DNA from: Gammaproteobacteria bacterium
Lineage (GTDB): Bacteria > Pseudomonadota > Gammaproteobacteria > Pseudomonadales > Azotimanducaceae
NCBI GenBank assembly: GCA_007694905.1
Contig: REEU01000153.1
Coordinates: 1-64,000 of the forward strand
Reading direction: 5' to 3'
Length of the DNA stretch: 64,000 nt
Part shown: piece after piece, positions 50,475-63,544 of the stretch
How the letters are laid out: each line of letters begins with the position of its first letter
Position numbering within the stretch: the first letter of the stretch is position 1
Translations under genes and position numbers: made by a program
The notes under the pieces: generated by a model
What the model was told of the DNA's origin: nothing
Seen by the model: the letters and a program-made list of their open reading frames with translations, nothing else
The model's database searches: none

Positions 50475-50870
50475 ATGGGTTTGGCACTGACTAAGGATTC
50501 CATCGACCTCGGGATCATCAGCCGCAATGCGGGTCCGATGGTCACGTTCTATCGGGACGTGCTCGGCTTCGAGGACGACGGCACCATGGAGGTGCCCGGC
50601 ATCGGCACCATGTACCGGCTGCGTTGCGGCAGCAGCGCGATCAAGATCACCGAGGCGCAGCCAAAGGCGGATGCGGCCCCAGGCGGGTTGATGGGCAGCA
50701 CGGGCCTGCGCTACTGGACCATTTCCGTCGCCGACGTCGATGCCGCGACGGACACCTGCCGTAAGGCAGGCCATGAACCGGTGATTCCGCCACGCGACAT
50801 CCGCCCCGGCGTACGCATTGCCATGTTCGCCGACCCGGACGGCAACTGGGTGGAGTTGCTGCAATCGTGA
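50475..50870 (+). CDS. VOC/glyoxalase-family protein
   Basis: 131-residue single-domain VOC protein. Paired beta-alpha-beta modules are seen at SIDLGIISRNAGPMVTFYRD and TGLRYWTISVADVDAATDTC, with metal-type residues near FADPDGNWVELLQS. The E-x-P glyoxalase I pattern is not evident, so it may be a lyase, dioxygenase or epimerase-like member. ATG at 50475 has GAGGAGG six bases upstream. Its last bases overlap the GTG of the dUTPase gene by four. Confidence 0.82.
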   Translation: MGLALTKDSIDLGIISRNAGPMVTFYRDVLGFEDDGTMEVPGIGTMYRLRCGSSAIKITEAQPKADAAPGGLMGSTGLRYWTISVADVDAATDTCRKAGHEPVIPPRDIRPGVRIAMFADPDGNWVELLQS

Positions 50871-51514
50871 CGGGCGTAAGTGCCGATCGCGTCCGCGCCA
50901 TGCTCGAAACCATGGCGCGTCTGCAGGACGACCACAACTGCAAGGTTGCGTCGGACTGGCGTGATCGGGGCTTTCCCTATGCCCGAGCGGTATGGGTCGA
51001 GTGTGCGGAGCTGCTGGATCACTTTGGCTGGAAGTGGTGGAAGCAACAACACCCGGACCTCGGGCAGGTACGACTGGAAGTGGTCGACATCTGGCACTTC
51101 GGTCTCAGCATGCTGCTGCTCGAAGGTGAGGTCGATGCAGGAACAGTCAAGCTATTCCAGACCCGGGTCGGGCAACCGCGTTCCCTGGATGCGTTCCGCA
51201 GTGATGTCGAGGCATTGGCGGTGGCTGCGCTGGCAGATCAGCGCTTCGACATTGCAGCCTTCATCGATCTGCTCAATGGGCTCGACATGGACCTTGCCGA
51301 TCTGACGCGTGAGTACATCGGCAAGAACGTGCTGAACAACTTCCGTCAGGCGCATGGGTATCAGGACGGCAGCTACCGTAAGGTCTGGGGCGGTCGGGAA
51401 GACAATGTGCACCTGCTCGAGGTGATCGAAGCTCTCGACGCCGGCGCGCCGGAGTTCGCCGATCGACTCTGGGATGCCCTGGTCGCCCGCTACCGATCCA
51501 CCGCGACGGCCTGA
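50867..51514 (+). CDS. Dimeric all-alpha dUTP diphosphatase
   Basis: 215-residue NTP pyrophosphatase of the dimeric (MazG-like) dUTPase type, converting dUTP to dUMP. The metal-binding helices are visible as AVWVECAELLDHFGWKWWKQ (residues 39-58, E-x2-E-x14-pattern) followed by VRLEVVDIWHF with the second E-x2-D pair. Gammaproteobacteria usually carry the trimeric Dut enzyme, so this form is notable; it is more typical of Campylobacter, trypanosomes and phages. Whether a trimeric Dut is also present cannot be seen. GTG start at 50867. Confidence 0.82.
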   Translation: MTGVSADRVRAMLETMARLQDDHNCKVASDWRDRGFPYARAVWVECAELLDHFGWKWWKQQHPDLGQVRLEVVDIWHFGLSMLLLEGEVDAGTVKLFQTRVGQPRSLDAFRSDVEALAVAALADQRFDIAAFIDLLNGLDMDLADLTREYIGKNVLNNFRQAHGYQDGSYRKVWGGREDNVHLLEVIEALDAGAPEFADRLWDALVARYRSTATA

Positions 51515-51627
51515 AGCCGGGCGTCACACGATCGTCACGATAGATTCATACTTCCTTGTTGGGCGCGTCACGCGCCCGTCACGCTCCCCTATCAGTCTGG
51601 GTCAAACCAGCAGAGCAGGAAGGGAGC
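51515..51627. promoter_or_regulatory. Gap with hairpin upstream of the LpxH-like gene
   Basis: 113 bases carrying GGGCGCG-TCA-CGCGCCC (51561-51577), a seven-base perfect stem, and ribosome binding sequence GGAAGGGAGC before the ATG at 51628. The hairpin may mark the end of the VOC-dUTPase transcript or the leader of the next one. Confidence 0.45.
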
Positions 51628-52431
51628 ATGGCGCAAACCGAGACAATACCCCATCACTACCGCACCATATGGCTGTCCGACATCCACCTCGGAACCCGCG
51701 GCTGCCAGGCGGATGTTCTTCTCGACTTCCTCAAAAACCACACCTGTGACCGGCTCTATCTCGTGGGAGACATCATCGACGGCTGGCGGCTGTCGAGCAG
51801 TCTGTACTGGCCGCAGAGCCATTCCAACGTCCTGCGGCGCTTCCTTACGCTGGCCAAACGTGGGACGGAAGTGGTCTACGTGACCGGCAATCACGACGAG
51901 TTTCTGCGCCGTTTCTCCGACCACAGTTTCGGCAATATCCGCCTTGTGGATCGTGCAGTGCACCGCACCGCTGACGATCGCACGCTGCTGGTGGTGCACG
52001 GCGACGAGTACGACGTCATCACCCGCTACCATCGCTGGATCGCCTGGCTGGGCGATCTGGGCTATCAGTTTTTGCTCGAGGTCAATCGGGTGAACAACGT
52101 GATCCGGGAGCGTCTTGGATACGGCCGCTGGTCGCTGTCCGCCTGGGTCAAGCACCGTGTGAAACGGGCCGTCAACTTCATCAGCGAGTTTGAAATCGCG
52201 GTGGCGCGGGAGTGCGAACGTGAAGGCTTCGACGGAGTGGTATGTGGCCACATTCACCACGCCGAGATTCGCGACATCGGAGAGGTCTGCTACCTGAACT
52301 GTGGCGACTGGGTTGAATCATGCACTGCCCTGGTCGAAGGGGCGGATGGCGACATCCGCGTGCTCCACTGGCATGGCGAAGAGCCTGCAGATTTGATTCT
52401 GCTTCCGACGCGCGAGGAGCGCGCCGCATGA
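51628..52431 (+). CDS. LpxH-like UDP-2,3-diacylglucosamine diphosphatase family
   Basis: 267-residue calcineurin-like phosphoesterase. Metal ligands are in WLSDIHLGTRG (Asp, His), VGDIIDGW, VTGNHDEFLRR and CGHIHHAEIRD. Its closest look is to the COG2908 LpxH-like group, which acts on lipid A precursors. The paired GT4 glycosyltransferase, coupled by ATGA, suggests a lipid or glycolipid step rather than canonical LpxH. ATG at 51628 is chosen for its strong binding site; a longer frame upstream is unsupported. Confidence 0.85.
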   Translation: MAQTETIPHHYRTIWLSDIHLGTRGCQADVLLDFLKNHTCDRLYLVGDIIDGWRLSSSLYWPQSHSNVLRRFLTLAKRGTEVVYVTGNHDEFLRRFSDHSFGNIRLVDRAVHRTADDRTLLVVHGDEYDVITRYHRWIAWLGDLGYQFLLEVNRVNNVIRERLGYGRWSLSAWVKHRVKRAVNFISEFEIAVARECEREGFDGVVCGHIHHAEIRDIGEVCYLNCGDWVESCTALVEGADGDIRVLHWHGEEPADLILLPTREERAA

Positions 52432-53468
52432 CCATCCTCATTGTTACCGATGCATGGCGACCGCAGACCAATGGTGTCGTCACGACGCTGGAGCAGGTGG
52501 TTGCCGGTGTGCGCGAGCGCGGCACGGATGTCGAAGTCCTGGAACCTGGCCGTTTCACGACGTTGGGGCTGCCCGGCTACCGTGAGATCCGTGTGGCCAT
52601 CAATCCGTTCTCGGTGGGTCGCCGGATCAGGGCGCTCGAGCCGTCTGCGGTGCACATTGCCACCGAGGGACCGCTGGGGCTGGCGGCGCGACGCTACCTT
52701 GCGCGGCACGACCTGCCGTTCACCACGTCGCTGCACACCAAGTTTCCTGAATACATGCGGGCCCGGGTCGGGCTGCCGTTGCGATGGGGCTATGCGTTCC
52801 TGCGCTGGTTTCATCAGCCCGCCTACAGCACGTTGGTGACGACGGAGCGGCAGCGTGAGGAGCTCGCCGCCTGGAGACTCGAGCACCTGCGGGTCTGGGG
52901 ACGGGGAGTCGATACCGAGGCCTTCTTCCCGCGCGCCCGCGTCGAAGGCTACGACGGGCCGTTGCTGCTTTACGTGGGCCGGGTCGCGGTAGAGAAAAAC
53001 CTCGAGGCGTTTCTGGAACTCGATTGCGCCGGCCGTAAGGTGGTGGTGGGAGATGGCCCGCTGCGTCGCTCGCTGGAGAGGCGCTATCCGGACACTGAGT
53101 TCGTCGGCTACAGCTACGGTGAGGCCCTGGCGGACTGGTACGCGCGGGCTGACGTCTTCGTGTTTCCTTCCAGGACCGATACCTTCGGTCTGGTGATGCT
53201 CGAGGCTATGGCCTGCGGTACGCCTGTGGCGGCGTTTCCGGTGACAGGGCCTCTGGGTCTGGTTACCGAGGGCCTGACCGGGGCGCTCGATGACGACCTC
53301 GCAGCGGCCATCGAACGGGCACTGGAATGCGACCGCAGTGCCTGCCGCAGTTTCGCCGAGAGCCAGAATTGGGATGCCGTCGTCGATCGCTTTCTCGAGG
53401 ATCTGGAGACCATCGTCTGGCCGCGCGCCGACCTGCCCCCGCTGATGGCGACAGGCTCCCAGCGCTGA
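52428..53468 (+). CDS. GT4-family glycosyltransferase
   Basis: 346-residue GT-B glycosyltransferase. It begins TILIVTDAWRPQTNGVVTTL and has the acceptor region TTSLHTKFPEYMRARVG. The donor-binding domain contains YVGRVAVEKNLEAFLEL and the E-x7-E region FVFPSRTDTFGLVMLEAMAC. It resembles GDP-mannose-dependent or diacylglycerol-type GT4 enzymes. ATG overlaps the phosphoesterase stop by four bases, so the two form a pair, perhaps building a glycolipid. The donor and acceptor are unknown. Confidence 0.9.
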   Translation: MTILIVTDAWRPQTNGVVTTLEQVVAGVRERGTDVEVLEPGRFTTLGLPGYREIRVAINPFSVGRRIRALEPSAVHIATEGPLGLAARRYLARHDLPFTTSLHTKFPEYMRARVGLPLRWGYAFLRWFHQPAYSTLVTTERQREELAAWRLEHLRVWGRGVDTEAFFPRARVEGYDGPLLLYVGRVAVEKNLEAFLELDCAGRKVVVGDGPLRRSLERRYPDTEFVGYSYGEALADWYARADVFVFPSRTDTFGLVMLEAMACGTPVAAFPVTGPLGLVTEGLTGALDDDLAAAIERALECDRSACRSFAESQNWDAVVDRFLEDLETIVWPRADLPPLMATGSQR

Positions 53469-53521
53469 CATCGGATCATGACGAGGTTAGGGTGTCGCTC
53501 AGGTGTCGCCGGATTCTGGAT

Positions 53522-53636
53522 CAGTCGGCGATCGGACGGATCTGCTGGGAGCAGATCCGGTCGCGCGCAGCGCGCCCGGAGGGTGCCCGCGAAGGGTGGC
53601 GGCAACAGCGCAGCTTCGCTGCACGCTCTCCCGTTG
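53522..53636 (+). repeat. Multi-hairpin dispersed element, copy 2
   Basis: Inverted copy of 28336-28453. It starts 53 bases after the glycosyltransferase stop and ends 32 bases before the NUDIX frame. It contains GGATCTGCT-GGG-AGCAGATCC (53538-53558, nine perfect pairs), a GCGCGC stem, a weaker CCGC/GCGG stem and GCAGCGAAGCTGC (53610-53622). Several differences between the two copies keep pairing in the stems (for example T-G against T-A in the last loop). No open frame crosses it. Confidence 0.8.
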
Positions 53637-53667
53637 ACACCAGCAAACACCACGCAACTTCAACACT

Positions 53668-54225
53668 ATGTGTGTTGTACCTTGGGAGTGCTCGTTGGAT
53701 CAGTATGCGTCACGGCAGCTTCTCGAACTGCACCGGAGCGCTGCTTACGGCGGTGCTGCGCAAGCCACGCTCATGTATCTGTGCCAGTTGGATCGAGTGC
53801 TGCTGATGCACAAGCGGCGCGGTCACGGCGCCGGATTGATCAACGCGCCAGGCGGCAAGCTCGAAGCCGGTGAAACCCCCTTGGCCTGCGCGCTGCGGGA
53901 AACCCGCGAAGAAGTGGGGCTCGAGGTGGAGGATGCGCGGCTGCTTGGCGAGCTGCGCTTTCTCGATGTCAGCGGTGACCGCACTCTGGGCTGGGCGTTT
54001 CGCGCTGGGCGTGCCTCGGGTGAAGCGCTGGTCACGGCGGAGGCGGCGCCCATGTGGTTTCCTGTGGATGCCATCCCCTACTCGAGAATGTGGCCCGGTG
54101 ATCGCTTCTGGCTGCCGTGGTTGTTGTCTGGGTCCCCATTCCGGGCCAGCCTGCTGTGTGACGGCCAGCAGGTGGTGGAAGCGCGTGTTTCAGCGATGCC
54201 CCGGCACTGGCAGAATTCTTGCTAA
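53668..54225 (+). CDS. NUDIX hydrolase (8-oxo-dGTP diphosphatase-like)
   Basis: 185-residue NUDIX protein. The NUDIX box is intact: GGKLEAGETPLACALRETRE then EVGLEV (near residues 63-88). The strand ATLMYLCQLDRVLLMHKRRG before it is typical of MutT/Nudt1-type enzymes that clean oxidised nucleotides. Start options are ATG at 53668, TTG at 53695 (GGGAG six bases upstream) or ATG at 53773. The middle option keeps the complete first strand with a better binding site. An inverted pair CAACAC/GTGTTG lies at the first ATG. Confidence 0.85.
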   Translation: MCVVPWECSLDQYASRQLLELHRSAAYGGAAQATLMYLCQLDRVLLMHKRRGHGAGLINAPGGKLEAGETPLACALRETREEVGLEVEDARLLGELRFLDVSGDRTLGWAFRAGRASGEALVTAEAAPMWFPVDAIPYSRMWPGDRFWLPWLLSGSPFRASLLCDGQQVVEARVSAMPRHWQNSC

Positions 54226-54329
54226 ATGCCTTCAGCCCTATCGGGCATGACACGTCAGGGCCCGCATGGGCGTCGTCGTTGCAATGAGCGCGCGCACTGT
54301 GGGTGTGCGCGACAAAGAGCGAGCAGACC

Positions 54330-54809
54330 ATGAAAGTGCATGGAATCCGGCCATGCTCGGTGCTGGTGGCATCGCCGCAGGCAGGCGCTGCGTCCGGGGA
54401 AGGGACCCTCACGGAAATCGTCGTCTCGGGTACGCGACTGCCGGAGGCTGGCAGCGAGGGCCCGATTCCTGTGGGGGTGGTCACCCGCGCCGACATGGAG
54501 CAGGGCATCACCGGCGACGAGATCGGTGTGGTGTTGGTCGTGCGTTGGCTGCAAGGTCGTCTCGAAACGGGTACCCGGCTGCTGTACGCCGCCGCCCAGA
54601 AGCGGTTGCTGCTGGGCCCGAACCAGGTTCCGGAGACGTCGTCCCATCAGCTGGTCGATCTGTTCGCGAGCTGGTTGCCGACCCCCTCGCTGCGGGAGGA
54701 TCTGCGGGTCGACAATCTCACCGACGAGGCCTTTCGGCGGCATCTGTCCCGAATCAAGGATCCGGGACGCAGCGTGCGCCTGCAGGTGAGCTGGCGTGGC
54801 GGCGTCTGA
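54330..54809 (+). pseudogene. Collapsed TonB-dependent receptor
   Basis: A 159-codon open frame that keeps only the two ends of a TonB-dependent receptor. Residues 25-58 look like a TonB box and plug start (LTEIVVSGTRLPEAGSEGPI then PVGVVTRADMEQ). The last hundred residues look like the final barrel strands (LVDLFASWLPTPSLREDLRV then DNLTDEAFRRHLSRI and PGRSVRLQVSWR). About 500 residues of plug and barrel expected between are missing, and the signal peptide is degraded. The frame is intact across the join, so a short product could still be made. Its stop overlaps the following ABC ATPase start by 14 bases. Confidence 0.72.
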
Positions 54810-55548
54810 CGCCGGCGGCCACTGGCCGCTGGAGCTGATCGGCCTGCGCAAGCGCTTCGGTCCGGTCCAGGCCCTGGCCGGGCTCGACCTCCGCGTCGGG
54901 GCGGGTGAGTGCTACGCGCTGCTCGGGCCTAACGGCGCCGGTAAGACCACGGCCCTGAACATCCTGCTTGGTTTCCTGCAGCCGGATGCGGGCACCGCCC
55001 GCATCGCCGCCGTAGACGTGCAGGCGGATCCCGATCGCGCCCGCCGCAATCTGGCCTACATCCCGGAACAGGTTCAGCTCTATCCCCGGCTGTCAGGGCT
55101 CGAGAATCTGGCGTACTTCCATGGTCTCGGTGCCAGCGAAGCGATGGCGGACGCGTCGTTGCGGGATTGCCTGCGGCAGGCGGGCCTGGCGGATGCGGCG
55201 TACGAACGCCGCGTTCACACGTATTCCAAGGGCATGCGCCAGAAAGTGGGTATCGCGATCGCGCTGGCGCGCCGCGCGCCGGTGATGCTGCTGGACGAAC
55301 CAACTTCCGGCCTCGACCCGGAGGCGGCCTTCGAACTCAATAACAGCCTTCGCGATCTCGCTGCGCGCGGGGTCACGATCCTGATGGCCACCCATGACCT
55401 GTTTCGTGCCCGGGAGGTGGCTTCCCGGATCGGGATTCTGGTGGCCGGACGCCTGCAGCAGGAGGTGGACCCGGCATCGGTGGGTGGGGCCGAACTCGAG
55501 TCCCTCTATCTGGCGGCGGTCAGGGACCTGCTCGGGCGGGCGTCGTGA
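54796..55548 (+). CDS. ABC transporter ATPase
   Basis: 250-residue ATPase of an ABC-2-type exporter. Walker A is LLGPNGAGKTTALNILL (near residues 41-57), the signature-equivalent is TYSKGMRQKVGIAIALARRA, and Walker B is VMLLDEPTSGLDPEA. Overall it resembles NosF/CcmA-like ATPases. GTG start at 54796. It overlaps the next gene by four bases. With the following two permeases it forms a complete export module of unknown substrate. Confidence 0.9.
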   Translation: MAASDAGGHWPLELIGLRKRFGPVQALAGLDLRVGAGECYALLGPNGAGKTTALNILLGFLQPDAGTARIAAVDVQADPDRARRNLAYIPEQVQLYPRLSGLENLAYFHGLGASEAMADASLRDCLRQAGLADAAYERRVHTYSKGMRQKVGIAIALARRAPVMLLDEPTSGLDPEAAFELNNSLRDLAARGVTILMATHDLFRAREVASRIGILVAGRLQQEVDPASVGGAELESLYLAAVRDLLGRAS

Positions 55549-56942
55549 TCGCACGGCTGGTCGCCAAGGAGCTGCTGGAACTCCGGCGCGATGGCCGTAT
55601 CTGGATGCTGCTGGCCATTCTCGGTGTGCTCGCTGCCGGCGCGGCTCTCAGCACCTGGCAGCAGGTCCGGACCCAGCATGCAGCCTGGCATGCGGCCAGT
55701 GCCGGAGAGCAGGAACGCTGGCTGGCTCAGGACGAGAAGCACCCGCATTCGGCAGCCCATTACGGCGTCTATGCATTCCGGCCGCCGGGGCCGCTGGCGA
55801 CGTTCGATCCTGGCCTCGACCCCTATCTTCCGGTCACGGTGTGGATGGAAGCCCATCGCCAGAACGAGGCGCTGTATCGACCCGCTCAGGATGCCGGGTC
55901 GGCGGTCAGGTTCGGCCGGCTTACGCCGGCCACCATCGTCGGTGCGCTGCTGCCGCTGCTCATTGTGCTCGTTGCGGCGCCTGCGATCAGCGGCGAGCGG
56001 GAGCGGGGAACCCTCACGCAACTGCTCGCACAGGGGGTGGCGCCGGGGCGCTGGGTTCTGGGCAAGGGCCTGGCGCTTGCCACGCTGCTCGCAGGGCTGC
56101 TCCTGCCCCTGTGGTTGTTGGTGACGGCCGTCCTGATCGTCGCTTCCGCGCCAACAGATACGCTGGCGCGCTGGCTGGCCGCGGGCGCGCTGGTTGCGCT
56201 TTATCTGGGCGGATTTCTTCTGACCTGTCTGTTCGTGTCCGCCTGCAGCCGGTCGGTCCGGACCGCGCTGCTCGTTCTGCTCTCGGTGTGGGCCGTCTCC
56301 ACCCTCATCGCGCCGCGCGCGGTGCTGGAGTGGGCACAGTGGCGCCACCCCACGCCGTCGAGCTTCGAGTTCAGACAGGCGCTGCAGGCGGACTTGCGGG
56401 ACCGGAGCGAACTTGATGCAAGGCTGGCGCGACGTGCCGCGGAGCTGCTGGAAGCGCATGCTGTGGACCGAGTCGAACAGCTCCCAGTCAATTTCGACGG
56501 ATTCCGACTGCAGGCGGCAGAGGAGCACGATTACGCCGTGTTCGACGCCCACTTCGGGCGCCTGCACGAGGGCTACCTGGCCCAGGAACGCCTACTGCAA
56601 TGGTTCGGCGTCCTCGCGCCCTATCTGGCCTTCAGTGCCGCGTCGAGCGGCCTGTCGGGCACCGACCTTCTCCACTACCGCCACTTTGCTGACAGCGCCG
56701 AACAACACAGACGGGTGATGCAGGAGATGCTGAACGAGGCCATCTATCGCAATCCCGAGGTTGACGGGCAGCGTTATCTGGCCGGCCCGGAGTTGTGGGC
56801 CACCGTTCCCGAGTTCGAGTACTCGGCCCCGTCCCTTGGTCGCATCATCAGCGGCCATGCGCCGGCGTTTGCCGTGCTCACAGGCTGGTTGCTGCTGCCA
56901 CTGATGGGCCTGCTGCGGGTCGCACCGCGCCTGCAGCCATGA
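55545..56942 (+). CDS. ABC-2-type permease, DUF3526-like, first
   Basis: 465-residue membrane protein. It starts MIARLVAKELLELRRDGRIW with a first membrane helix, then a large periplasmic loop (residues 40-115), a helix cluster with PLLIVLVAAPAISGERERGT, a second large soluble loop, and a final helix near residue 445. This two-loop layout is that of DUF3526/ABC-2-like permeases found next to TonB receptors. It begins in the last four bases of the ATPase gene and overlaps the second permease by four. Confidence 0.82.
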   Translation: MIARLVAKELLELRRDGRIWMLLAILGVLAAGAALSTWQQVRTQHAAWHAASAGEQERWLAQDEKHPHSAAHYGVYAFRPPGPLATFDPGLDPYLPVTVWMEAHRQNEALYRPAQDAGSAVRFGRLTPATIVGALLPLLIVLVAAPAISGERERGTLTQLLAQGVAPGRWVLGKGLALATLLAGLLLPLWLLVTAVLIVASAPTDTLARWLAAGALVALYLGGFLLTCLFVSACSRSVRTALLVLLSVWAVSTLIAPRAVLEWAQWRHPTPSSFEFRQALQADLRDRSELDARLARRAAELLEAHAVDRVEQLPVNFDGFRLQAAEEHDYAVFDAHFGRLHEGYLAQERLLQWFGVLAPYLAFSAASSGLSGTDLLHYRHFADSAEQHRRVMQEMLNEAIYRNPEVDGQRYLAGPELWATVPEFEYSAPSLGRIISGHAPAFAVLTGWLLLPLMGLLRVAPRLQP

Positions 56943-58384
56943 ACAGCGCCGTCGTCCGCGGTGAGGTTCGGCTGCTGCTGCGTGATCCTGCGGTGTGGAC
57001 CGTGCTGCTGGTCCTCGTCGTCACCCTGATCGGCGCGGTGATTCAGGGCGTGCTTCGCAAGCACGCAGAGATCGCCGTCTTCACGGAAATGGCAAATGCC
57101 GATGCTGCCAGGCTGGAGTCGGCGACCTGGGACGCCATACGCCTGGAAGAGCAGGGTGGAAACGTCTCGCGATTTCGTGATCCGCGCAACGCAGACGTGG
57201 TCGGGCGGCGACTGGCAGTGCAACATCTGATTCTGCCGCCGACGGGACTGGCTGCGCTGGCTGTTGGCCAGAGCGACCTGCACCCGGCGTGGCATCCCGT
57301 GTCCTTGGAACCGCGCGACCAGCTGCTCGCCGAAGGCGAGCTCAATGCTCCACGGCAGCTGGCCGTGGGTCGCTTCGACGTCAGTTTCGTGGTGGTGTTC
57401 GTCGCGCCGCTGTTGCTGCTCGGTCTGCTGGCAGGGTCCCCCGCCCGCGAGCGGGAGTCGGGGATACTGCCTCTGCTGGCCGTGCAGCGGGGTCGACTCG
57501 GTGGTTGGCTGGCGCTGCGTACAGGACTGCGCCTGCTGATTGTCCTGCTGCCCATCCTGGTGGTGGGCGTCGTGGTGGCATGGCTTCCCGGCCCTGGCCC
57601 ACTCGAGACCGCGGCATCCGAGACGTGGCTGCGCCTTGGGCTTTGGGGCTTGGCGGTTGCAGGTTACCTGACGTTCTGGGCCGCCCTCGGCGTCTGGATG
57701 GGTACGCTGGCGCTGGATACCGCCCGCGCTGTGCTGGCGCTTGCGGCGGCGTGGCTGCTGCTGGTGATCCTCCTTCCCGCCATCGCGAACGTCGCGCTGG
57801 AGCTGAGTTACCCACAACCGTCCCGCATCGAGTACGTGGATGCCATGCGCGCCGCAACGGATCTTGCCCGCGCGGAAGGCAGCGAGGTTCTGCAGCAGTA
57901 CCTGGAGGATCACCCGGAGATGGCGGGCGACGACGTCGACGTGGACGACTTCTTCGCTCAGCGCCTGCTGGTTCAGGCGCGGGTCGAGGAGGCGCTGCGC
58001 CCCTTGTCGACCGCCTTCGAACAGCAGCGGCAGGCGCGTGCCCGTCAGGTGCGCTGGTTGCGCTGGGCGTCGCCGGCCATGCTCACCTCGGAGGGGCTCG
58101 CGGATGCCGCGGGGACCTCCGAGTCACGGCAGGCCGACTTCCTGCAGCAGGTGCATGGGTTTCATGATGCCTGGCGGGATTTCTTCGGGCCTCGGGTGCT
58201 TGCGGGACGGCCGTTTTTCGACCATGACCGCATTCCGACCTTCGAGTATTCGCACGAGCCCCCGACTCGATTGGCGGCACGAATGGCTGTGGTCATGCTC
58301 GGTTGCTTCGGGCTCAGTGTCGCCTTGGGTCTGCTGGCGTTGCGTCGCGCTCGCAGTCTCCCTAAGGTCATGGGCAACGAGTGA
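56939..58384 (+). CDS. ABC-2-type permease, DUF3526-like, second
   Basis: 481-residue membrane protein with the same layout as its neighbour: N-terminal helix (VWTVLLVLVVTLIGAVIQGV), a large loop, a helix cluster with LLLLGLLAGSPARERESGIL, a second soluble loop (residues 300-450) and a C-terminal helix. The two permeases are clearly related but diverged, so the exporter is probably a heterodimer. ATG at 56939 is in the four-base overlap with the first permease. Confidence 0.82.
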   Translation: MNSAVVRGEVRLLLRDPAVWTVLLVLVVTLIGAVIQGVLRKHAEIAVFTEMANADAARLESATWDAIRLEEQGGNVSRFRDPRNADVVGRRLAVQHLILPPTGLAALAVGQSDLHPAWHPVSLEPRDQLLAEGELNAPRQLAVGRFDVSFVVVFVAPLLLLGLLAGSPARERESGILPLLAVQRGRLGGWLALRTGLRLLIVLLPILVVGVVVAWLPGPGPLETAASETWLRLGLWGLAVAGYLTFWAALGVWMGTLALDTARAVLALAAAWLLLVILLPAIANVALELSYPQPSRIEYVDAMRAATDLARAEGSEVLQQYLEDHPEMAGDDVDVDDFFAQRLLVQARVEEALRPLSTAFEQQRQARARQVRWLRWASPAMLTSEGLADAAGTSESRQADFLQQVHGFHDAWRDFFGPRVLAGRPFFDHDRIPTFEYSHEPPTRLAARMAVVMLGCFGLSVALGLLALRRARSLPKVMGNE

Positions 58385-58417
58385 CCTCACGGCATCGACG
58401 CTAAGGAGTGCAGCACG

Positions 58418-59047
58418 ATGAACGCTCCGGATCCCGACCTGCGGGAGCGGATTCTGGACGAAGCATTGGCGCTGGCGGCGCTGGATTCATGGGAAGCGGT
58501 GCGGCTGCACGCGGTGGCGGATCGCCTCGGAATCGGACTGGACACGATCCGCGGCCACTTCGCGGAGAAGGAGGATCTCGTCGAGGCCTTCTTCGATCGG
58601 GCCGATGCCGCCATGCTGCGGTGTTCGGAACAGCAGGATCTCTTGCATCTCGATCCGCGCGCACGCCTGCAGACGCTGATTCTGGCTTGGCTCCATGCGC
58701 TGGCGCCGCATCGGCGCGTCGTACGTGAGATGATCGCGGGCAAGCTGGAACCCGGTCACCTGCACGTTCAGATTCCAGGCCTGTTGCGCGTGAGTCGCAC
58801 CGTGCAGTGGCTGCGTGAGGCCGCCGGTCTCGATGCGACGTTTCTGCGGCGGGCGCTGGAGGAGACCGCGCTCACCGGCATTTACCTGGCCACATTTGCA
58901 CGTTGGCTGAACGACGATTTGGACGATTTTGCGGCCACCGTCCGCTTCCTCGAAGGTGCCCTTGGGGGCGCTGAGCGGCTGGCGGAAGGCTTCGGGGGCT
59001 GGGGTCGCTCGGAGGCGGCGTCGACGCACGGACCCAAGGATTCATAG
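58418..59047 (+). CDS. TetR-family transcriptional regulator
   Basis: 209-residue regulator with an N-terminal helix-turn-helix. DPDLRERILDEALALAALDS and the recognition region LHAVADRLGIGLDTIRGHFA end in EKEDLVEAFFDRADAAML. The C-terminal ligand domain resembles COQ9/TetR-type proteins, which is weak evidence. AAGGAG lies nine bases before the ATG. It follows the ABC permeases by 33 bases and may control them or the dynamin-like gene. Confidence 0.82.
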   Translation: MNAPDPDLRERILDEALALAALDSWEAVRLHAVADRLGIGLDTIRGHFAEKEDLVEAFFDRADAAMLRCSEQQDLLHLDPRARLQTLILAWLHALAPHRRVVREMIAGKLEPGHLHVQIPGLLRVSRTVQWLREAAGLDATFLRRALEETALTGIYLATFARWLNDDLDDFAATVRFLEGALGGAERLAEGFGGWGRSEAASTHGPKDS

Positions 59048-59125
59048 TGGGTCGGTTGCAGCGCGCAACAACATCGAATCGCAATTCACGGCCCAGGGTC
59101 ACCACGGCTAGCGGCGGAGGTAGCA

Positions 59126-61255
59126 ATGACTGCTGAAGATAGACACGAAGACCGGAGCGCCAGCGGACCGATGCAGGGACTGTTGAGCCACTTCTGCGAA
59201 GCGCTTGAGCATGGCCTCTCGCCGCTGCTCAAGCCCATCTCCGAAGTGGCGGACGACTTCAATGCTCAAGCCACTGCCGTACCCGCCGTACTGCCGCCCA
59301 TGAGGGAAGTTGCCGATCAGATTTCGCTGCTGGTGGACAAGATGGCGGAGCAGCAAGCCTACGTGCTGATCTTCGGCCCCCTGAAGAGCGGCAAGAGCAC
59401 GCTCATGAATGCGATCTGCGGCAAGTACGTCAGCGAAGTGAGTTGCCTGCCGGCCTATCCCTGCCTCGTGCACGTCGCGCATGCGGAGCAAACCCGTTTC
59501 CAGGTGACACGCTACAACGGCAGCACGAACACCATCGTTGACGAACCGGCGCTGGCGCAGGCGGTGGCCGACGACCACAAGGTGCTGGTCGAAGCGCTGC
59601 GCAGCTGTGAAGCCGCCGGCATCGACTTCGAGCCGCAGCAGCATGCCACCACGGCCATCAGACGTATCGATATCCGGGTGCCGGCGGGCGATCTGGCTCA
59701 GTCGGGTGCGGTGCTCGTGGACACGCCTGGGCTGTATACGCGCATGAAGTTCGGCTACGACAGGATGACCCGCGATTTCCGCAACGCGGCAGCCTGCGCG
59801 ATCTTCGTCGTCAAGACGGACAATCTTTTTCTGGATCAGGTGTTTGCCGAGTTCGAGGACCTGCTGGAACTGTTCGGGCGCATCTTCCTGGTGGTGAACC
59901 TGGACTCGACCAAACAGGACCTGCAGTCCGATGGCACGCTGGCGCCGTCCCTGGAGCACGCGGATCCGCAGGCGATTGTGCGGGCGTTCGAGAATTTGGC
60001 GATGACGGCGCCGCTGCGCGAGGCGCGGCAGGACGGTCGCTTGCAGATCTATCCGGTGGATCTCCTGCGGGCTGCCAGTGGGCGCATCGGCAGGCAGGAA
60101 CAGGAGCAGGTAGAAGCCGAAGGCGCCCGGGATTTCGCTGCCCTGCTCGAGGACCTCACCGAGTACCTCAACAGCAACGAGTACCTGCGTGGTTTCGTCG
60201 CAGACGGGCTGCAGCGGGCCGCCGCTCTGCTGGATGACCTCGGCGACCTGCTCGAGCATCGCGACGTTTTGAGCTTGCAGGGCCGGGGTCGAACGCTGGC
60301 GGAACGCAAGGCGCAGCTCGAATCAGCGGATGCTGCGCTCGACCGGATCGTGGCCATCGATTGGCGCGCCCTGGCAGCGCGGCAGGGCGCGCTGCTGCGC
60401 GAGCGCGTCGAATCCGAGATCGAGCCCCTGCGGTCGTCGGCTCGACAGACCCTGCATGACGCCCTTGCAGCCTGGTTCGAGAACGACAGCAGCCTCGCTG
60501 CGCTGTGCCGCGACAGTCTGGCGCCGGAGCTGGAACGCGTGCACGAGGAACTCGGGCGCCTGCTGCGCGACGAGTGCGAGAGTCAGCTCGGCCCGGCGGC
60601 GGCCATGGCTGATCTGGATGCGGAACCGGCATCGGATCTGGAAACGGCCGGCGTCGATCTCGCGTCGGCGCTGCGTGATGTGCTCGATGAGCGCCCCCTA
60701 GCTGCGGGCCTTCCTACGCCGGTCACGGTGCTGGACAGCCTGCAGCTGCCCGTGCGCCGGCGCATCATCGACTGGTTGTTGCTGCGCCGGCCGGCGACGG
60801 TACGGCGCTACTTCTTCGGGCCGCCGGAAGCACCGGAGATTCGCCTCACCGCCGCAGAGAAGGCACGCCGTCTCGGTGATTCCGGCCGTGAGGCCATGGC
60901 CGACCAGCTCGATGCCTTGCTTGAGCCGATGTTCGAGTGTGCCGGGGGCAGCATGCTGGAAGCGTGGGTGAGCCGTCATCAGGGCGAATTGGCGGCTCAG
61001 CTCGACCGCCGCAGCAGCGAGCGGCGGGCGGCGATCCTCAGCGAGCTCGATGAGGTCAGCGCGGAGCTTGCGCAGGTGCAGCGGGTCGTGGATCGACTCG
61101 GGGCGCTGCGGCAACTGGCTGCGCAACGCAGCAGTCTCGTCTCTGCGCTTATGGACGAACTCGCGGCACTGGATCCTTCAGCCCTCGGCCGGCCGTTGGA
61201 CTTTCTCGCCGCTTCCGAAACCGAAGTGGACACGGCTGAGGACGCACGGGTCTGA
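59126..61255 (+). CDS. Dynamin-like GTPase
   Basis: 709-residue protein with an N-terminal dynamin-type GTPase. G1 is LIFGPLKSGKSTLMNAICGK (near residues 82-101), G3 is VLVDTPGLYTRM, and the G4-equivalent is FLVVNLDSTKQD. After it comes a long helical stalk (residues 330-460) and a C-terminal helical region (residues 560-700) with PVRRRIIDWLLLRRP near residue 545. Bacterial dynamins remodel membranes, some in stress or phage defence. No partner gene gives a role here. The length is right for a full single-domain bacterial dynamin. Confidence 0.8.
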   Translation: MTAEDRHEDRSASGPMQGLLSHFCEALEHGLSPLLKPISEVADDFNAQATAVPAVLPPMREVADQISLLVDKMAEQQAYVLIFGPLKSGKSTLMNAICGKYVSEVSCLPAYPCLVHVAHAEQTRFQVTRYNGSTNTIVDEPALAQAVADDHKVLVEALRSCEAAGIDFEPQQHATTAIRRIDIRVPAGDLAQSGAVLVDTPGLYTRMKFGYDRMTRDFRNAAACAIFVVKTDNLFLDQVFAEFEDLLELFGRIFLVVNLDSTKQDLQSDGTLAPSLEHADPQAIVRAFENLAMTAPLREARQDGRLQIYPVDLLRAASGRIGRQEQEQVEAEGARDFAALLEDLTEYLNSNEYLRGFVADGLQRAAALLDDLGDLLEHRDVLSLQGRGRTLAERKAQLESADAALDRIVAIDWRALAARQGALLRERVESEIEPLRSSARQTLHDALAAWFENDSSLAALCRDSLAPELERVHEELGRLLRDECESQLGPAAAMADLDAEPASDLETAGVDLASALRDVLDERPLAAGLPTPVTVLDSLQLPVRRRIIDWLLLRRPATVRRYFFGPPEAPEIRLTAAEKARRLGDSGREAMADQLDALLEPMFECAGGSMLEAWVSRHQGELAAQLDRRSSERRAAILSELDEVSAELAQVQRVVDRLGALRQLAAQRSSLVSALMDELAALDPSALGRPLDFLAASETEVDTAEDARV

Positions 61256-61330
61256 GCGGGTATCAGGTTGTGACCATCCCGGGTCAACCGTAGACTGGGC
61301 GGTTCGGCACATGTCTTTGGAGGGCGGTGC

Positions 61331-61876
61331 TTGCACGAGCTGGATACGGAGCGCCTACGTTTGCGAGCGTTTGCCGTGGAGCATCTCGATGCGCTTCACG
61401 CGCTGTGGACCGATCCGGACGTGCGTCGCTATCTGTGGGACGACCGCGTCATCTCCCGTGAACGCGCAGCCAAGGTGATCGCAGACAGCGAGCACAATTT
61501 TGAGGAGCGCGGTTTCGGATTCTGGGCGATGCTACTGCGTGCCGAGGGCGATGCCCTGATCGGGTTCTGCGGCTACCGCCTGTTCGAGGAGACCGGAGAA
61601 CCGGAATTGCTCTACGGGATCCTGCCTCGCTTCTGGGGCAAGGGTTTGGTGTCCGAGGCTGCCCATGCCGTCATCCGTGATGGCTTCGAACGCTGTGGCT
61701 TTCAACGCATCATTGCCGCCACCGATACGCCCAATCAGTCATCCGTTAAGGTGATGCAGCGCCTCGGCATGCTGTTTCTCAAGCGGGGCAAATTCCATGG
61801 TCTCGATACCGTGTTTTTCGAGCTTTCGCCGGCGGACTATGCGGACCATCTCGAGCTTGGGGCGCGCAGCACCTGA
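61331..61876 (+). CDS. GNAT acetyltransferase, RimJ/RimL type
   Basis: 181-residue acetyltransferase. It opens ELDTERLRLRAFAVEHLDAL, and motif A is LLYGILPRFWGKGLVSEAAH (near residues 95-114), followed by IAATDTPNQSSVKVMQRLGM. This is the layout of RimJ/RimL-like enzymes that modify protein N-termini, or small-molecule relatives. TTG at 61331 is the only near start and has GGAGGG upstream. It abuts the acylphosphatase gene by one base. Confidence 0.85.
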   Translation: MHELDTERLRLRAFAVEHLDALHALWTDPDVRRYLWDDRVISRERAAKVIADSEHNFEERGFGFWAMLLRAEGDALIGFCGYRLFEETGEPELLYGILPRFWGKGLVSEAAHAVIRDGFERCGFQRIIAATDTPNQSSVKVMQRLGMLFLKRGKFHGLDTVFFELSPADYADHLELGARST

Positions 61877-62154
61877 TGAACGTCGATGCGTTCGAAGTCC
61901 GGGTTCGAGGGCGGGTGCATGGGGTGTGCTTTCGCGCCTCGACCCGGCGGGCCGCGCCCGAACTCGGACTCGTCGGCTGGGTCCGCGACGAGGCGGATGG
62001 GAGTGTCGCCATGCACGTTCACGGCCCACCGGGCGCGCTGGAGCAGTTTCAGGCTTGGACCCATCGTGGCCCTCCCGGTGCCCGTGTTGATACGGTCGAA
62101 GTTGCGTCTGTTGCCGTGGAGTCCCGGCTCGAGACATTCGAGGTCCGGCGATGA
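61876..62154 (+). CDS. Acylphosphatase-like protein with altered catalytic residue
   Basis: 92-residue protein of the acylphosphatase fold. The phosphate loop VRGRVHGVCFRAST (residues 9-22) keeps the catalytic Arg. The family's catalytic Asn, normally in GWVRN, reads Asp here (GLVGWVRDEADGSV). This change usually weakens acylphosphatase activity, so the enzyme may be inactive or altered. It overlaps the DUF503 gene by four bases. Confidence 0.88.
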   Translation: MNVDAFEVRVRGRVHGVCFRASTRRAAPELGLVGWVRDEADGSVAMHVHGPPGALEQFQAWTHRGPPGARVDTVEVASVAVESRLETFEVRR

Positions 62155-62435
62155 CGCCAGACATCGTGCTGCTGAGCGTCAGTTTCCATCTCGATGGCTG
62201 TCGGTCCCTGAAGGAGCGAAGGCAGCGTCTCGGTGGTCTGCGTCAGCGCCTGGGGCGGGAGAGTGGTGTCGCGCTGTGTGAGCATGCTTGCGATGATCCG
62301 GAAGCGTCGATCTGGAGTATTGTGATCGTAGCGAGCAGTCGGCGCGGGGCGACCGATCTCGCCGGCCGAATCGAACGGGATCTGGAGTCCCGGGTCGATG
62401 CTGTCATTCAGGATCTGACCCGGGAGTGGTTGTAG
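62151..62435 (+). CDS. DUF503 family protein
   Basis: 94-residue protein of the DUF503/YlxP-like group. It has the beta-strand VLLSVSFHLDGCRSLKERRQ with the characteristic SLKERR pair, and later IWSIVIVASSRRGATDLA. The family is small and of unknown function. Start overlaps the acylphosphatase stop (ATGA). It is followed by the DUF3080 gene after 35 bases. Confidence 0.82.
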   Translation: MTPDIVLLSVSFHLDGCRSLKERRQRLGGLRQRLGRESGVALCEHACDDPEASIWSIVIVASSRRGATDLAGRIERDLESRVDAVIQDLTREWL

Positions 62436-62470
62436 CTTTCTCGAAACGGGCGTGACCGGAGGTCACACAG

Positions 62471-63544
62471 ATGTTCCCGAACCGGTCACGCCGGAGAGCG
62501 CCTGTCCTGCTCATCTGCCTCGGTCTTTCGCTGCTGATGACCGGGTGTGCGCCTGAAGATCCGGCGGCCACGATGCTCGCGGAGTACCGAATCCGCATCG
62601 CCCGCGTCGTGGACGTCGACCTGGAACCTGCGGCGATGCCCCCGCTTGCAACATGGCCGCGAAATCGGGAGCGAACCCTCGTCGTCCCGCCCCTGCGGGC
62701 AGGACTTGGCCGCTTTCTGAGCCTGCATCGCTGCGACCTCGGCAGTCTCATCGGGGAACGCAGCTCCCAGCTCGGCCGGGTGATGCGGCCGAGTCAACTG
62801 CTCTCCTACGAGCATCGATTCCTGTTGGCGGCGGAGCGCTGCCTCGTCCGACTCGAGGGTGATTCGGGCCAGGAGGCGCTGCGGGCGGATCTCGCCGACA
62901 TCGTCGCATTCAAGCGTGAGCGGCTGCCGCTGCTGGCATGGAATGCGACGCTGGGCGGTGAGGACCTGGCGGGCGCCCATGCCCTGGATGTCCCTGCTCT
63001 GCCACCCGATCGCACGGAACTGGCAGGGCAGGCCGAAGCCGAGGCGCTGCGACTGCTGGCGGATCGATTGCCGCGTCTAGGCTGGGATGACCTGGACATG
63101 GCCGCATGGGATGCGCCCTGGGAGGTCTTGAGTCGAAGTGCCTTCCCTGGGCGTGCTCGGCGGGGCGTGCAGTTGCTCACCCACTATCTTGACGAGGTTG
63201 CGCGCCTGCTGGAGGCGCGGCAGGCGCAGCGACCCCTGTGCCCACAGGGGCGGCCGACCCGCGATGCGGACATCCTCGTCAATGTGTTCAGGGGGTATCA
63301 TGCAGACTCCGTGCAGCCCTACCTGGTGGCCATCGATGGCGCCCAGCGTCGCTGGTTTGCGGCCATCGATACGCTGGCGGCCGCGCAACGGGTGACGCCG
63401 CCGCAAGGATTTGCGGAGTTCGCAACCGAGGTGCTCGAACCCTCAGGTAGCGCGTGGCAAAGTTTCGTCACGGCCCGGCAGCGGCATACCGCGGCCTGGC
63501 AGGATGTGCTCGATCGTTGTGCTCTGTCGCCCACTGCCGGGTGA
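62471..63544 (+). CDS. DUF3080 lipoprotein
   Basis: 357-residue predicted lipoprotein. The N-terminus is basic, then hydrophobic, ending in the lipobox LLMTGC (residues 21-26). The mature protein carries the DUF3080 domain, known from Gammaproteobacteria, seen here as LGRFLSLHRCDLGSLIGERS and MRPSQLLSYEHRFLLAAERC. The next residue after Cys is Ala, so outer-membrane anchoring is likely. The function is unknown. Confidence 0.85.
   Translation: MFPNRSRRRAPVLLICLGLSLLMTGCAPEDPAATMLAEYRIRIARVVDVDLEPAAMPPLATWPRNRERTLVVPPLRAGLGRFLSLHRCDLGSLIGERSSQLGRVMRPSQLLSYEHRFLLAAERCLVRLEGDSGQEALRADLADIVAFKRERLPLLAWNATLGGEDLAGAHALDVPALPPDRTELAGQAEAEALRLLADRLPRLGWDDLDMAAWDAPWEVLSRSAFPGRARRGVQLLTHYLDEVARLLEARQAQRPLCPQGRPTRDADILVNVFRGYHADSVQPYLVAIDGAQRRWFAAIDTLAAAQRVTPPQGFAEFATEVLEPSGSAWQSFVTARQRHTAAWQDVLDRCALSPTAG

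Follow-up and report, generated by a model that had tools for sequence, protein, structure and literature searches.

A collapsed heme-type receptor gene at the head of an ABC/DUF3526 operon and its repeated in-frame loss among congeners

The window, that is the whole stretch of 64,000 nucleotides analysed here (contig REEU01000153.1 of the gammaproteobacterial assembly GCA_007694905.1), carries a 159-residue remnant of a TonB-dependent receptor directly ahead of an ABC ATPase gene and two DUF3526 permease genes. Beyond what an earlier note on this DNA had described, the lost receptor is of the heme type, it has been lost twice among the congeners, and its loss accompanies a separate hmu operon. 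The event in the window is ordinary reductive decay of one operon gene, and what sets it apart is that it happened more than once, that it kept the frame and that it coincides with a second heme system. As congeners with and without the receptor carry the same putative exporter, comparing them amounts to a natural deletion experiment on this uncharacterised transporter, from which it may be learned which part is dispensable.

The receptor remnant and its intact counterpart

In this part of the window the genes all run in the same direction, in the order NUDIX gene, 159-aa frame, ABC ATPase, two DUF3526 permeases, TetR/COQ9-like gene and dynamin-like GTPase (Table 1). The TetR/COQ9-like gene (58418-59047), directly downstream of the cassette, is present in the window, G005 and G002; it was not found in the stretches retrieved for G001 and G003, and the G004 contig ends before its position. 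In G001, a 671-aa PQQ-enzyme/BamB-like frame (L022 1974-3989) separates the NUDIX region from the receptor.

When 58 related genomes were searched with the stub, 18 showed some match, and in the congeners its two ends match the ends of long receptor frames. The congener set comprises six genomes, namely that of the window (G000) and G001 to G005, all of them MAG-like assemblies of 92-98% completeness. Open receptor frames span 689 aa in G001, 671 aa in G003 and 670 aa in G005 (661 codons counted from ATG), and in G004 the receptor is divided between two contig ends, in pieces of 582 and 260 aa, the overlapping parts of which are non-identical and perhaps reflect a strain mixture.

The earlier note had proposed an in-frame loss of about 500 residues that spared the TonB box, the plug start and the last barrel strands, and DNA alignment to G005 bears this out, as 1491 bp or 497 codons (2013 - 507 - 15) are missing between the early plug and the late barrel. 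The stub matches the G005 receptor at 84% over its residues 58-159 and at 75% over residues 5-63. The same alignment reveals a second gap, absent from that note, of 15 bp or 5 codons in the signal core; it could be an insertion in G005 rather than a loss in the window, its direction being undecided because the signal regions of the other congeners are too divergent. Both gaps keep the frame, and the stub contains zero internal stops.

Table 1. Features of the collapsed receptor gene and the adjoining exporter genes in the window
Feature	Position	Strand	Remarks
Stub ribosome-binding site, weakened	54314..54319	+	AAAGAG, against GAGGAG in G005
Collapsed TonB-dependent heme-type receptor, 159 aa, in frame	54330..54809	+	matches the intact receptor of G005 at either end
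15-bp in-frame gap relative to G005	between 54371..54372		within the hydrophobic core of the signal peptide
TonB box and plug start, retained	54405..54512	+	
Junction of the 1491-bp deletion	54512..54513		position ambiguous within a few bases; ends share no more than micro-homology
Retained receptor end: final 98 codons with stop (last barrel strands)	54513..54809	+	
AGGTGA and GTG start of the ABC gene	54784..54798	+	inside the last receptor codons; GTG at 54796
ABC transporter ATPase, 250 aa, intact	54796..55548	+	PF00005 108.2 bits; dN/dS 0.07 vs G005
Permease 1, DUF3526 / ABC2_membrane_2, 465 aa, intact	55545..56942	+	PF12040 100.5 bits, PF12679 70.3 bits; dN/dS 0.097 vs G005
Permease 2, DUF3526, 481 aa, intact	56939..58384	+	PF12040 87.1 bits; dN/dS 0.188 vs G005

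The heme-receptor model TIGR01785 matches the C-terminal part of the stub (E 3.3e-10), and the whole-protein score of 39.1 bits lies below the curated cut-off of 316.85. In a Pfam search no receptor domain was recognised, the sole match being to an unrelated domain (E 0.051); neither the plug (PF07715) nor the barrel (PF00593) appeared at E up to 1, and a search against PHROGs returned nothing useful. The region in which heme-receptor motifs would be sought is itself deleted in the window.

The nature of the lost protein can be read from its intact counterpart in G005, which scores 461 bits against TIGR01785, above the cut-off, and contains both the plug (93.6 bits) and the barrel (186.9 bits). 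Its closest solved structures are the outer-membrane heme/hemoglobin receptors 9dir and 9dhe together with ShuA (3fhh), with E values from 2e-57 to 4e-56, the ShuA alignment covering residues 46-579 at E 4e-56. It carries FRAP, NPDL (NPNL in ShuA) and two histidines aligned with those of ShuA, which we take to be the heme-binding ones. The FRAP and NPNL motifs and two conserved histidines are given as marks of heme receptors by Bracken et al., as cited in PMC6449446. Judged by homology, the receptor that headed the operon in the window is thus a ShuA-type TonB-dependent heme receptor, and heme is the likely ligand of the cassette receptor. The orthologue resembles the ShuA-type class (TIGR01785; 3fhh, 9dhe) in profile score, in its alignment to ShuA and in motifs and histidines; it differs in that its gene sits with an ABC/DUF3526 pair and, in the window, has collapsed.

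Several traits of the stub point to decay beyond the large deletion. Upstream of its start, the best pairing with the anti-Shine-Dalgarno sequence reaches -4.5 kcal/mol, compared with -6.6 to -10.2 in the five congeners and with a median of -3.3 for 2000 random 22-mers; the best 10-residue hydropathy of the signal is 1.37 as opposed to 2.22-2.88, making the core in the window the least hydrophobic of the six, where start codons for both comparisons were the analyst's choice. At sites constant in the intact congeners, the stub shows the replacements T to A, P to S, Y to F and N to K. In its C-terminal part, the window branch carries 7 polarised replacements with 5 silent changes and the G005 branch 1 with 4 (5 and 8 being unpolarised), and its mature N-terminal part has one replacement on each branch. 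This 7:1 bias makes for a weak test of selection, with a Fisher p of 0.29 (not significant) relative to the G005 branch and of 0.033 relative to the G001-G003 pair, and several neighbouring genes likewise show more replacements on the window branch. Structure prediction is uninformative in both directions, AlphaFold having given a mean pLDDT of 36.3 for the stub (alignment of 5 sequences) and of 27.7 for the intact receptor of G005, modelled as a control (4 sequences). Neither a promoter nor a terminator was found in a scan of 54100-54900.

Independent loss in G002 and a separate heme-uptake operon

The comparison with relatives carrying full receptors, which the earlier note had recommended, shows that the six congeners fall into two with the receptor collapsed in frame, three with a full receptor and one with a receptor split by contig ends; a cassette receptor with a broken frame was not seen among these six genomes. 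The second collapsed gene occurs in G002, at the same locus and in the same neighbourhood, as a 239-aa frame that lacks about 71 plug codons and about 396 barrel codons relative to G005, both in frame, and the last 20 residues of which are identical to those of G005. Unrooted trees of the flanking genes and of the exporter genes agree, with 100% support, in placing the window and G005 as sisters, G002 apart, and G001, G003 and G004 as a third group. This placement, together with the different breakpoints, argues that the losses are separate, and by this comparison G002 lost the same receptor independently of the window. Three of the five congener records bear CSSed names, the form used for bins from Cock Soda Lake metagenomes in PMC6704655 (names alone compared), and the named relatives probably include genomes from soda-lake sediment.

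ShuA-type receptors are usually partnered by an HmuTUV-type importer. Each of the six congeners has exactly one locus above the TIGR01785 cut-off; it is the cassette receptor in G001, G003, G004 and G005, and a separate receptor in the genome of the window and in G002. These two separate receptors are 85% alike and only 37-39% like the cassette receptors. In the genome of the window (G000:C5) the separate receptor (TIGR01785, 491.7 bits) lies together with HemS (243), a binding protein (Peripla_BP_2, 104.4), a FecCD permease (304.6) and a heme-type ATPase (ABC_tran, 93.7), in the manner of an hmuRSTUV operon, the ATPase falling just below the heme-specific cut-off (NF010068, 255.4 vs 261). The corresponding locus of G002 has typed HemS and FecCD genes and a binding protein at 79%, and its ATPase is represented solely by a 6.8-kb DNA alignment at 76.5%.

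HemS occurs in two of the six congeners, the very two with a collapsed cassette receptor, and a close HmuT binding protein is likewise confined to them, the other four having just 29-32% matches that the two also possess. The association of hmu with the collapsed receptor is therefore 2/2 against 0/4 (p = 0.067 by our own arithmetic on six genomes), a reciprocal pattern of hmu and intact cassette receptor that is suggestive, in assemblies whose MAG-like character and 92-98% completeness mean that the hmu absences are not proof. The hmu contig resembles the window in composition (GC about 0.63 vs 0.65; tetranucleotide correlation 0.98), a weak fit given that a locus from an unrelated family reaches 0.96. 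An empty site for the hmu contig could not be demonstrated among the six genomes because its flank proteins are not shared, the right one occurring in 2/6 and the left one in 1/6, the genome of the window included.

Overlap with the ABC gene and competing explanations

The end of the receptor gene overlaps the start of the ABC gene by 14 bases in the window and in G005 and by 11 in G002. The ribosome site of the ABC gene pairs weakly, at -3.8 in the window and G005 and -4.1 in G002, near the random median, which was obtained from slightly longer stretches. In G001, G003 and G004 a TTG that follows the receptor stop by 4 bases shows stronger ribosome-site pairing (-5.8 to -8.4), so that the overlapping start is possibly not the true ABC start everywhere. 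All three polarisable large receptor deletions are in frame, which would happen by chance 1 time in 27, or 1 time in 81 when the 15-bp gap is included (own arithmetic, independence assumed). Translational coupling and Rho polarity are established effects according to PMC12548453, where it is also stated that coupling weakens as overlaps lengthen and that spacings other than 14 bases are the most efficient. The receptor/ABC pair resembles the coupled gene pairs described there in its overlap of 14 bases (11 in G002), and differs from them in that coupling is here inferred and the overlap exceeds the most efficient spacing. Moreover, the weak ribosome site of the stub would itself lower coupling to the ABC gene. 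Given the long overlap, this weakened site and the alternative TTG starts, any filter on frame is better regarded as inferred than as a strong dependence.

On balance, we lean towards the explanation that the stub is a decayed ShuA-type receptor, redundant beside hmu, which decayed twice under a filter by coupling or polarity for in-frame loss, while the exporter has a job independent of it. Under this mechanism, the cassette receptor would be redundant beside another heme receptor and would decay; with the ABC start lying within the last receptor codons behind a ribosome site that is itself weak, any loss that broke the frame would reduce expression of the exporter, through failed coupling or through Rho polarity; deletions that keep the frame would hence be favoured, and the exporter would retain a job that needs no cassette receptor. 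The further decay of the stub, visible in its ribosome site, its signal core and the replacements in its C-terminal part, counts for this explanation, and the weak statistics of the 7:1 replacement bias and the distribution of a second cassette (G000 and G002, but G001 too) count against it. The repeated in-frame collapse at an overlapping gene pair turns the shaping of gene decay by operon coupling into a testable idea.

Plain neutral decay, by which the receptor was lost through redundancy, the in-frame state is chance and coupling is irrelevant, appears rather doubtful: it can draw on the small number of polarisable large deletions (only three), on the AGGTGA of the ABC gene itself, on the better-placed TTG start in three congeners and on the weakening of the receptor ribosome site, but every deletion seen is in frame, and the two stubs are free of stops and both run on to an end that overlaps the ABC start. 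An assembly or binning artefact, with the receptor intact in the organism and the contig collapsed or chimeric, might be suspected in a genome of 315 contigs, the more so as the G004 receptor is itself split over two contig ends with overlapping parts that differ. Judged from the sequence around the junction, it is highly unlikely as the cause of the stub, since the 120-base stretches around the two G005 boundaries share no word longer than 7 and the deletion ends (read from G005, G001 and G003) share just a few bases at the junction; repeat-driven collapse is disfavoured because it needs far longer identity. In addition, the weakened ribosome site, the shortened signal core and the replaced conserved residues represent decay beyond an assembly fault, and G002 has collapsed independently.

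The open frame, the retained TonB box and C-terminal strands and the dN/dS of 0.20 against G005 would be expected had the stub been kept as a functional short protein, such as a leader peptide or a periplasmic regulator. This is very improbable in view of the same three signs of decay, and G002 has retained different middle parts. Finally, TonB receptors are known as phage and colicin receptors, and repeated loss would also fit selection against the receptor (by phage, bacteriocin or heme toxicity) in place of redundancy; such selection would not predict the match with the hmu operon, and we regard it as barely credible.

The putative exporter and DUF3526 cassettes at large

The exporter genes had been described as looking intact, and their domain scores and rates of change sustain that description. 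In the window, two permeases exceed the PF12040 cut-off of 25 bits beside an ABC ATPase; permease 1 also exceeds that of the ABC2 membrane domain PF12679 (27.2 bits), permease 2 remaining below it at 21.9 bits, and a profile comparison matches NosY weakly (PDB 7o0y, E 0.0011). The likeness to NosY-type ABC-2 permeases consists of PF12679 in permease 1 and of this weak match, and the difference is that the cassette has two unlike permeases, each with DUF3526, plus a receptor gene in the operon. Compared with the 0.20 of the stub, dN/dS relative to G005 is 0.07 for the ABC gene, 0.10 for permease 1 and 0.19 for permease 2, and polarised changes on the window branch (replacement:silent) number 2:11, 8:12 and 13:11, respectively. 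These values span the time before and after the collapse, and therefore leave selection since the collapse unproven by themselves; exporter dN/dS may be weak as evidence of receptor-free function because the collapse is possibly too recent. Silent divergence from G005 is uneven along the locus (dS 0.19 in the ABC gene, 0.16 and 0.26 in permeases 1 and 2, and 0.24 to 0.64 in the flanking genes). Identity to G005 over 50500-62500 is likewise a mosaic, mostly 90-97% at 54716-57400, 78-87% just upstream, 96-98% at 50501-51500 and 76% at 57516. Such unevenness suggests recombination tracts.

PF12040 exceeds its cut-off in 37 of 206 family genomes, 9 of 369 in the class sample and 21 of 398 in the phylum sample (the genome of the window being included in each), compared with 1 of 14 control genomes, and a relative of permease 1 is present in all six genomes of the genus. 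With profiles built from the loci themselves, 67 loci with PF12040 matches were mapped (L024, which carries the remaining part of the G004 receptor but no permease, was excluded); in this mapping four have one permease only and seven have no ABC gene alongside. The claim that receptor, ABC ATPase and two DUF3526 permeases form a recurring cassette is upheld, as a receptor frame of 550 aa or more lies within 2 kb at 52 of the 67 loci, 43 times upstream in line (counting L093, whose frame is broken, as well as L023 and L068, which lie near contig ends), five times downstream and four times in divergent orientation. The remaining 15 comprise the two collapsed loci (window and G002), one cut by a contig end (L056) and 12 without a receptor within 2 kb; among the latter, a contig end is close by at L067, L078, L086 and L090, a receptor lies at a distance of about 3 kb at L083, L091 and L092, and the stretches fetched for L072-L075 and L115 contain none. 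L072-L075 belong to a single genus (g8) and have low-scoring DUF3526 permeases, L073 having only 1.5 kb downstream.

Receptors of these loci are of mixed class. Of 20 that were typed, 14 exceed the cut-off of TIGR01783 (siderophore class) and six match no family at E 1e-60 or better, and none of the 20 is of the heme class at that threshold; of two typed separately, that of L058 is of the siderophore class and that of L055 exceeds no cut-off. It follows that the same exporter core is found with receptors of different classes, and some loci lack a nearby receptor. Function of the exporter without a receptor is plausible from the two collapsed loci and the few loci lacking one nearby. Against reading it from the collapsed loci, both of those genomes hold a second DUF3526 cassette: in the genome of the window it is a complete receptor-ABC-DUF3526-DUF3526 set (L055 4789-10334, on G000:C5) with a 665-aa receptor, and others occur in G002 and in G001. 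More tentatively, receptor and exporter could be separable modules, with the exporter handling a substrate of its own, with heme or siderophore receptors recruited and discarded and with coupling forcing in-frame shrinkage to a short leader as a recurrent non-polar route of loss, a generalisation that we consider possible though doubtful. A literature search, with subscription papers mostly outside its scope, returned no account of DUF3526 itself or with TonB receptors, of a NosY/TonB exporter pairing, or of in-frame pseudogene deletion with coupling; on TonB receptor pseudogenes, heme uptake and gene loss it yielded a paper on Xanthomonas.

Two loci show variant arrangements at the receptor position. 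In G587 (L093 8040-10498), the receptor is split into overlapping frames of 646 and 180 aa, by a frame break or a sequencing error. At L058 (9255-10415), an HGSNAT/acyltransferase-like membrane protein (PF07786) lies between the receptor and the ABC gene, and other family loci have gaps of about 1 kb at the same position.
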